64,000 bases of DNA from Candidatus Poribacteria bacterium (GTDB lineage: Bacteria; Poribacteria; WGA-4E; PCPOR2b): the NCBI GenBank assembly GCA_028819845.1, contig JAPPKS010000015.1, forward strand, positions 1 through 64,000, in the 5' to 3' direction. Every line of letters begins with the position of its first letter. The stretch's first letter is position 1. The notes beneath the pieces are model-generated. The model was not told the DNA's origin and made no database searches. It saw only the letters and a program-made list of their open reading frames with translations. Both the position numbers and the translations under genes were made by a program. This document shows, piece after piece, positions 15,568-16,832 of this stretch.

Positions 15568-15698
15568 GTGCCCACCAGAACGTCTAAGCGGACAATCGAG
15601 TGGAAGAGACACGTTCCTGCTGCGAAGTTCTCAACACATTGAAATAGACACCTGTTTTCGAAAACCAAAGCAAACAAAACGTCGAAAGGAAGAATATC

Positions 15699-16700
15699 TT
15701 GCGTAAATTAACCTTGAGTGCCTTTTTCTTAGTTCTGATTGGATCTCTGATACTGCCAACCGTGAGTTTAGCCAGCGAAAACCCCTGTAATCCTTGCGCG
15801 GACGCAAGTGAAGAGCAGTCAAACCCCTGTAATCCCTGCAACCCGTGCGCGGCGAATCCGTGCAACCCTTGTAACCCGTGTGCGGCGAATCCATGCAATC
15901 CTTGTAACCCATGCGCGGTGAATCCATGCAACCCGTGCGCGCCAGGGGCAACGCTGTTCACAATTGACGATGACAGAAACACATTCACATTTGAGTCCAA
16001 GGCGCCGTTGGAAAAAATTATCGGCATGAGCAACAAAGTTGCAGGGCATGTTCATGTGAACCCGAACGATGTCACCAGCGGTTCAATGGCGAAATTTGAG
16101 TTGGACCTCGCAAGCATGTCGACAGGGATTGGCCTTCGAGATGAGCACATGCGTGACCAGTTTCTGGAAACGGACAAGTACCCTAAAGCGGTGCTCACAA
16201 TAGATACAGTTACGAAAGCGTCCAGCGATACGCTTATGGATCAAAAGCCTGTAACCCTAGATGCAAAAGGAACGCTAGAGTTGCACGGCGTAAAGAATGA
16301 GGTGCGCCTCGAAGGTATCACCGTGACCTTTCTCAAGGAAAATGAACAAACCAATATGAGGCTGCCCGGCGATCTTATACATATTGACGGCAGCTTTGTA
16401 TTGAAGCTTTCCGATTACAAAATCAAAAGGCCGCAGTTAGTCCTTCTCAAGTTGGACGACAACATCAAAGTCAGTGTTGATCTGTTTGGCACAACCGCCA
16501 AGATGTCGACGGAAAATCCGTGCAACCCCTGTAATCCGTGCGCGGCGAATCCATGCAACCCGTGCAATCCTTGTAACCCATGTGCGGCGAATCCATGTAA
16601 CCCGTGCAATCCTTGCAACCCATGTGCGGCAAATCCGTGTAACCCGTGCAATCCTTGCGCGGAAAATCCCTGCAATCCGTGTAACCCGTGCGGCAAATAG
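15699..16700 (+). CDS. YceI-family protein flanked by Asn-Pro-Cys repeat tracts
   Basis: 333 residues. The TTG start has AAAGGA 8 bases upstream and opens a signal peptide (about 1-26). Residues 27-83 are mostly NPC triplets interrupted by Ala-Ala or Ala-Val (13 Cys). Residues 84-265 are a YceI-like lipocalin-fold domain ([54 protein letters not shown]). Residues 268-333 are again NPC repeats ending CGK (17 Cys). YceI proteins bind isoprenoid quinones or similar lipids in the periplasm. The repeat tracts could bind metal or form disulfide-linked rods; both ideas are inference. It is monocistronic, with its own promoter and a downstream hairpin. Confidence 0.85.
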
Positions 16701-16761
16701 ATAGCAGGCAGCAATCGTGAGAGGCATTAACGCTCTACGATTATTACAGTATCGTGTAATG

Positions 16762-16832
16762 GTAACCGTTCAGAATTTTACGGCTATATCCTGACTGAAC
16801 AGCATCAGCCCCTGAACGGTTACCTTTTTTTT
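16762..16832 (+). terminator. Inverted repeat with T-run after the YceI gene
   Basis: GGTAACCGTTCAG (16762-16774) pairs perfectly over 13 bases with 16812-16824 and is followed by eight T. The 37-base loop is unusually long for an intrinsic terminator, so it could also be a small mobile repeat acting as a terminator. Confidence 0.5.

Follow-up and report, generated by a model that had tools for sequence, protein, structure and literature searches.

The gene at positions 15699–16700 (forward strand) of the window, the whole 64,000-nt stretch of Candidatus Poribacteria DNA that was analyzed, encoded a protein of 333 aa in which a YceI domain was flanked on both sides by an arm built of Asn-Pro-Cys (NPC) units. 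The YceI core was ordinary, and the arms are what is new in this protein. The best reading, to which a probability of roughly 0.4 was given, is that the arms are disordered periplasmic strings of thiolate beads that bind soft metals and are attached to a redox or lipid carrier. The protein may also represent, within Poribacteria, a class that has yet to be described, a view put forward tentatively.

Translation and a Pfam search agreed with the earlier note, which had described NPC tracts with 13 and 17 Cys around a YceI domain. The open reading frame began with TTG, 6 nt downstream of a ribosome-binding site, AAAGGAAG, read from the sequence (15685–15692, forward strand), and its product opened with a probable Sec-type signal peptide, recognized by eye from the translation (15699–15773, forward strand; ending SLA/SE, with neither twin Arg nor lipobox Cys), which suggests a periplasmic location. 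The N-terminal tract (aa 28–80; 15780–15938, forward strand) comprised 13 NPC units, grouped as 2, 3, 3, 3, and 2 per run, and the C-terminal tract (aa 273–331; 16515–16691, forward strand) 17 units in runs of 3, 4, 4, 3, and 3, followed by GK and the stop codon. Between them lay the YceI domain (PF04264, aa 87–262; 15957–16484, forward strand), which matched with an E-value of 4.8e-22 and 79.4 bits against a cut-off of 23.7, so that the globular core belongs by sequence to the YceI family; its closest solved sequence relatives were 2x32 and 2x34, the YceI domain of X158. Cys-repeat arms are undescribed in the material found on this family and belong to the window protein. All 30 Cys lay inside an NPC unit, and the YceI domain had none. 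Among 20,000 shuffles that kept the composition, the mean was 0.39 NPC per protein and the maximum 4, in line with the claim that such tracts are unusual. The runs were separated by AA (five times), AV, AE, and one ADASEEQS, the last two adding to the Ala-Ala and Ala-Val spacers reported before. This was the single locus of its kind found in the source genome. A perfect 12-bp palindrome, GTTTTCGAAAAC, was located at window 15654-15665, ∼34 bp 5′ of the start codon; it was absent upstream of the gene in relatives and was rejected as a common operator of NPC-YceI genes.

The repeat had no matching entry in Pfam, NCBIfam, or the PDB. Neither the tracts nor short NPC proteins from other bacteria matched NCBIfam, and hence they fell in no curated exported-metallophore-precursor family, while a PDB search with the C-terminal tract returned only CDC50A matches (E about 2). 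A literature search for ‘NPCNPC’ yielded no relevant paper, with CdeC alone found as an NPC-repeat protein. Because no profile exists, automated annotation overlooks the module.

Searching 59 relatives with the YceI core revealed intact orthologues in nine other genomes, at 58–65% identity over the core. NPC units flanked the core on both sides in 10 of the 10 intact poribacterial orthologues, at 30, 29, 28, 17, 17, 17, 16, 12, 10, and 7 units per genome. Repeat number was thus variable, but no loss of an arm was seen among intact orthologues. Retention of both arms across a span of 7 to 30 units would be expected of a capacity-type ligand rather than of a rigid structure. The NPC-YceI gene of genome G008 (L230:8084-10843) lacked its 5′ part, with only the C-terminal portion and its 10 NPC units remaining, and was directly flanked upstream and downstream by TnpB-like transposase genes. 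YceI proteins at 27–36% identity elsewhere in the order came from genomes without the NPC pattern.

The similarity of the two tracts at the DNA level had been ascribed to recent expansion by slippage. Tandem DNA repeats were indeed present, with 33-bp and 42-bp units matching at 88–90%, so the tracts were built by duplication; against slippage as the whole account, 13 different 9-mers encoded the 30 NPC units, and all 763 base differences over 435 unit pairs fell at the third codon position, with 0 at the first or second. Because these differences are all synonymous, the amino-acid unit is, on the evidence of codon positions, held by selection and not slippage noise. The antisense strand of the tract DNA read as a collagen-like GLQ/GLH repeat, in which variation at the third base of Pro codons would swap His and Gln, arguing that the sense frame is the selected one. 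That the tracts are a functionless neutral repeat expansion, or a misread antisense collagen-like Gly-X-Y gene, would accord with the tandem repeats and the antisense strand at this locus, with the differing repeat numbers of relatives, and with the many viral and Bacteroides pattern matches that proved to be short open reading frames or collagen-like antisense readings. The in-frame fusion to YceI, with start codon, ribosome-binding site, and signal peptide, speaks against it, as do the synonymous unit differences and the retention of both tracts by all intact orthologues. Codon-position and orthologue evidence together, both drawn from sequence, refute this explanation for the NPC-YceI locus, and it was rated as extremely improbable; an antisense collagen-like gene was rejected on frame and codon positions. 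Recoding of a stop within the tracts, as selenocysteine or otherwise, was rejected as well, as two orthologues ended in ...NPCNP-stop (TGA in one, TAA in the other) and neither had NPC after the stop.

The most constant neighbor was a Crp/Fnr gene, located 3′ of the NPC-YceI gene on the same strand in 10 of 10 loci (the window and L224–L232), either next to it or with one glycosyltransferase-like gene between; other neighbors differed between genera. In the window, this regulator (PF00027 and PF13545; 17046–17837, forward strand), identified by Pfam search and neighborhood comparison, was separated from the NPC-YceI gene by a terminator-like inverted repeat read from the sequence, GGTAACCGTTCAG ... 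CTGAACGGTTACC, then T8 (16761–16832, forward strand), and it may control NPC-YceI expression. A TlpA-type thioredoxin-fold lipoprotein gene lay immediately 5′ of NPC-YceI in G009 and G012, and close by in G002 and in the gammaproteobacterial locus L246; over the poribacterial genomes, its position was directly 5′ in two (WCKPC) and two genes 5′ in a third (WCAPC). The source genome encoded a DsbA adjoining VKOR, plus a DsbD, so both oxidizing and reducing thiol pathways are present. Elsewhere in the window were a ZnuABC-type metal uptake operon (window:5663-9763, ∼6 kb upstream) with ZnuA (PF01297), an ATPase, and two permease ORFs; two related tandem ORFs (∼259 aa each; window:18274-20056) whose N terminus is transmembrane and whose middle is acidic; and a respiratory cluster (window:23356-36700) with Rieske, split cytochrome b, a 1084-aa multi-CXXCH cytochrome c, a cytochrome bd-like subunit, and an ethylbenzene-dehydrogenase-like domain.

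A scan for three consecutive NPC codon units in a collection of 84,980 species, in which class counts are lower bounds, revealed the same arms on other proteins. YceI with NPC was represented by at least 12 sequences, redundant ones included, and among the matches listed came from Poribacteria only. NPC tracts accompanied a cytochrome P460-type domain in at least 41 sequences from Alphaproteobacteria and a monohaem cytochrome c in at least 5 from Gammaproteobacteria and similar groups, were fused in a SAR324 bacterium (L077) to a domain without an assigned family, and occurred in at least about 28 short secreted proteins. The P460 identity was based on PF16694 and on a fold match to 7ead and 6hiu (cytochrome c′-beta, P460). 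Alphaproteobacterial members of this family carry NPC arms as the window protein does, but on a different partner domain, one absent from NPC-YceI. Run lengths of 2 and 3 prevailed in four protein classes whose domains are unrelated, and the residues after a run were mostly AA, AG, GA, GG, or AV, alike across all classes; the window protein, with its probable signal peptide, repeated runs of 2–4 NPC, and Ala/Gly cap, followed the same grammar, which is common to unrelated redox domains. Pattern matches in viral contigs and gut Bacteroidales were not counted, being short chance or collagen-antisense readings without a signal peptide.

In NPC-bearing genomes of other groups, DUF6969 (PF22308) was present in 30 of 35. 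Within an even draw of 190 genomes from the class of one NPC carrier, it was found in 16 of 17 NPC-positive and 23 of 173 NPC-negative genomes (Fisher p = 8e-12, or 1.7e-10 after removing two genomes known beforehand), p-values that overstate independence because the genomes share descent. In several of the 23 NPC-negative DUF6969 genomes, NPC-like or Cys-rich genes that the DNA pattern had missed adjoined DUF6969, so these counts would, if anything, underestimate the association. Twenty loci picked for having both NPC and DUF6969 genes also contained genes for a secreted FGE-type protein (10), the YeeE-like sulphur-transport family (7), a small secreted protein of cupredoxin-like look (6), SNase (5), DUF302 (4), and cytochrome c (4–5). 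DUF6969 genes traveled with secreted Cys-repeat proteins across Proteobacteria (L233-L252, e.g., L252:2415-3182); Aestuariispira insulae and Hahella ganghwensis are cultivable carriers of both. The secreted FGE-superfamily proteins adjoining NPC genes had a conserved SWDDKGCGxCRPAARH (L234:5390-6268, L236:9982-10854, L246:7002-9266), the one in L246 being fused to a multi-CXXCH cytochrome. A small secreted family ending in YSCPLNxTPxY near NPC genes (L252:7045-7554, L241:6127-6732) had no Pfam match and was cupredoxin-like by eye only. No paper on DUF6969 was found in a literature search, and the company of NPC proteins offers a first hint at what this uncharacterized domain does.

DUF6969 was absent from the source genome and from the 59 poribacterial relatives, and was rejected as a poribacterial partner of NPC-YceI. 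Because the neighborhood of the poribacterial gene, unlike the proteobacterial loci, showed nothing of the DUF6969 cluster apart from the NPC module itself, the two settings have the module in common, not the system. The (NPC)n tract could be an undescribed mobile periplasmic thiol module, placed on electron-transfer or quinone-binding domains or standing alone, and occurring in Poribacteria, Alpha- and Gammaproteobacteria, and SAR324 at the least, with the proteobacterial DUF6969 system, often joined by a secreted FGE-like protein, as a new metal/redox buffer or carrier. Taken jointly, this is a possibility held with somewhat less than even confidence.

The proteobacterial loci also bear on the proposal that the tracts are a bufferin-like RiPP core with modified Cys, made in Proteobacteria by the secreted FGE-like protein and/or DUF6969. 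The layout of the short secreted NPC proteins resembles that of bufferin precursors, DUF6969 shows its close association with NPC genes, and the secreted FGE-superfamily protein with its GCGxCR motif was encoded in 10 of 20 loci. Within a run, x-P follows each Cys as in the FGE substrate motif, C-x-P-x-R, but NPC lacks the Arg, and FGE-like genes were missing from half of the loci. The lack of DUF6969 in the 59 poribacterial relatives also weighs against it, and a search for the MNIO gene (PF05114) gave 0 matches in the source genome and positive results in two control genomes, so that bufferin/MNIO modification was rejected there. A RiPP core was regarded as improbable. Bufferins are copper chelators that are exported by Sec and rich in Cys; one class carries EGKCG repeats in variable number, with as many as 58 Cys, and fusions of the type Buf1–cytochrome c–FGE have been described (PMC12452194). 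NPC-YceI resembles them in its probable Sec signal peptide and its many Cys in short variable repeats, and the cytochrome c and FGE found fused to bufferins are matched by cytochrome c and FGE-type genes adjoining NPC genes; it differs from Buf_EGKCG/oxazolin bufferins in its motif (NPC instead of EGKCG) and in having no MNIO gene in the source genome to set against their MNIO modification.

Under the preferred metal-bead reading, a secreted periplasmic YceI carrier would bear two flexible thiol arms, each a string of beads in which a bead is C-Asn-Pro-C or C-Asn-Pro-C-Asn-Pro-C with an Ala/Gly cap. The beads would be multivalent soft-metal ligands offering two to three thiolates per ion, with Cu(I) likelier than Zn(II), and the arms would store or buffer metal beside a domain meeting quinones or isoprenoid lipids. 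TlpA/DsbD-type reductants are proposed to hold the arm thiols reduced, and thereby usable. The limitation of Cys to a strict NPC unit and the purely synonymous variation of that unit are consistent with such a ligand, the arms are joined to redox or haem domains (P460, monohaem cytochrome c) or to YceI, and the TlpA-type neighbors fit. AlphaFold modeled the window protein at pLDDT 32 from an alignment of only 3 sequences, too poorly to show a YceI pocket. For an alphaproteobacterial P460 homologue, modeled from 8 sequences, pLDDT was 70–89 over most of the haem domain and about 87 in a conserved C-x-V-P-R-L spacer between tracts, with the NPC tracts at about 30–35 and devoid of secondary structure. 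The contrast between arms modeled without order and a mostly ordered P460 domain would also suit the beads, and suggests, weakly, that the arms are flexible in the apo state; the model covers no metal-bound form. Of the functions proposed earlier, metal-thiolate or disulfide chemistry was judged reasonable, whereas the rod form was not supported, AlphaFold having given the tracts no order, a weak indication with such shallow alignments.

An organism rich in copper proteins had been assumed, yet neither the Cu-ATPase CPC motif nor the multicopper-oxidase HCHxxxH motif was found within the 64-kb window, where the metal genes were of ZnuABC type, and no CPC ATPase, HMA chaperone motif, or multicopper oxidase was found in the window or the proteobacterial NPC loci. 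A Cu-type ATPase lay ∼8–9 kb from NPC-YceI in one poribacterial genus only (L226, L227, L230), and classical copper genes were rejected as conserved neighbors of NPC loci. For the suggested copper storage or quinone/copper link, the argument for copper is one of analogy: copper is preferred over zinc mainly because of the likeness to bufferins, and by that analogy is plausible. Against metal beads stand this missing copper signature at the locus, the shallowness of both structure models, and a DsbA/VKOR periplasm that could oxidize the arm thiols. Among classical thiolate proteins, Csp folds as a helical bundle, and metallothioneins use CxC/CC motifs and mostly reside in the cytosol. NPC-YceI is like them in high Cys content and in the metal-thiolate idea, and a disordered apo state would suit metallothioneins, but no profile match was found.

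The DsbA-VKOR oxidizing pair would suit the main rival to metal beads, in which the arms are cross-linking or anchoring tails whose inter-protein disulfides tie the carrier into an envelope or extracellular network, as two arms per protein would permit. The Clostridioides difficile CdeC, a Cys-rich outer-layer protein with a 6-NPC repeat, assembles into DTT-sensitive lamella-like bodies (PMC7677010), but the role of the NPC part alone was not isolated there, and CdeC differs from NPC-YceI in that it belongs to the spore exosporium, has Cys motifs of other kinds and six NPC units against 30, and lacks the YceI layout. Runs of three Cys were almost as common as runs of two, so pairing of Cys within a run is not enforced. 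The arms also sit on redox or haem domains, TlpA-type proteins, some of them adjacent, are more usual in systems that hold Cys reduced, and no structural partner gene was conserved; cross-linking was considered doubtful.

Still less likely is a role for the arms as sacrificial thiols that buffer against quinones, other electrophiles, NO, or peroxides and bind no stable metal, with the attached domain handling the species concerned: quinone or lipid for YceI, NO or related chemistry for P460 and cytochrome c. The X158 domain was reported to bind ubiquinone-8, which its structure holds (PMC8981238), the other partner domain has the P460/c′-beta haem fold, and genes for TlpA-like, DUF302, and Sulf_transp proteins recurred near NPC genes. 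The polyphenol methyl gallate is reported to induce a Ralstonia yceI gene (PMC8472277). A plain buffer would need neither a strict N-P-C unit nor a set run length, however, and no catalytic thiol-cycling enzyme was conserved across phyla.

The NPC module is short, repetitive, and simple to study in isolation. If its beads bind copper or zinc, as in the metal-bead reading, it would be another modular way to seat a high-capacity thiolate store on a redox or lipid carrier; if they cross-link, envelope proteins would gain a new kind of structural element.
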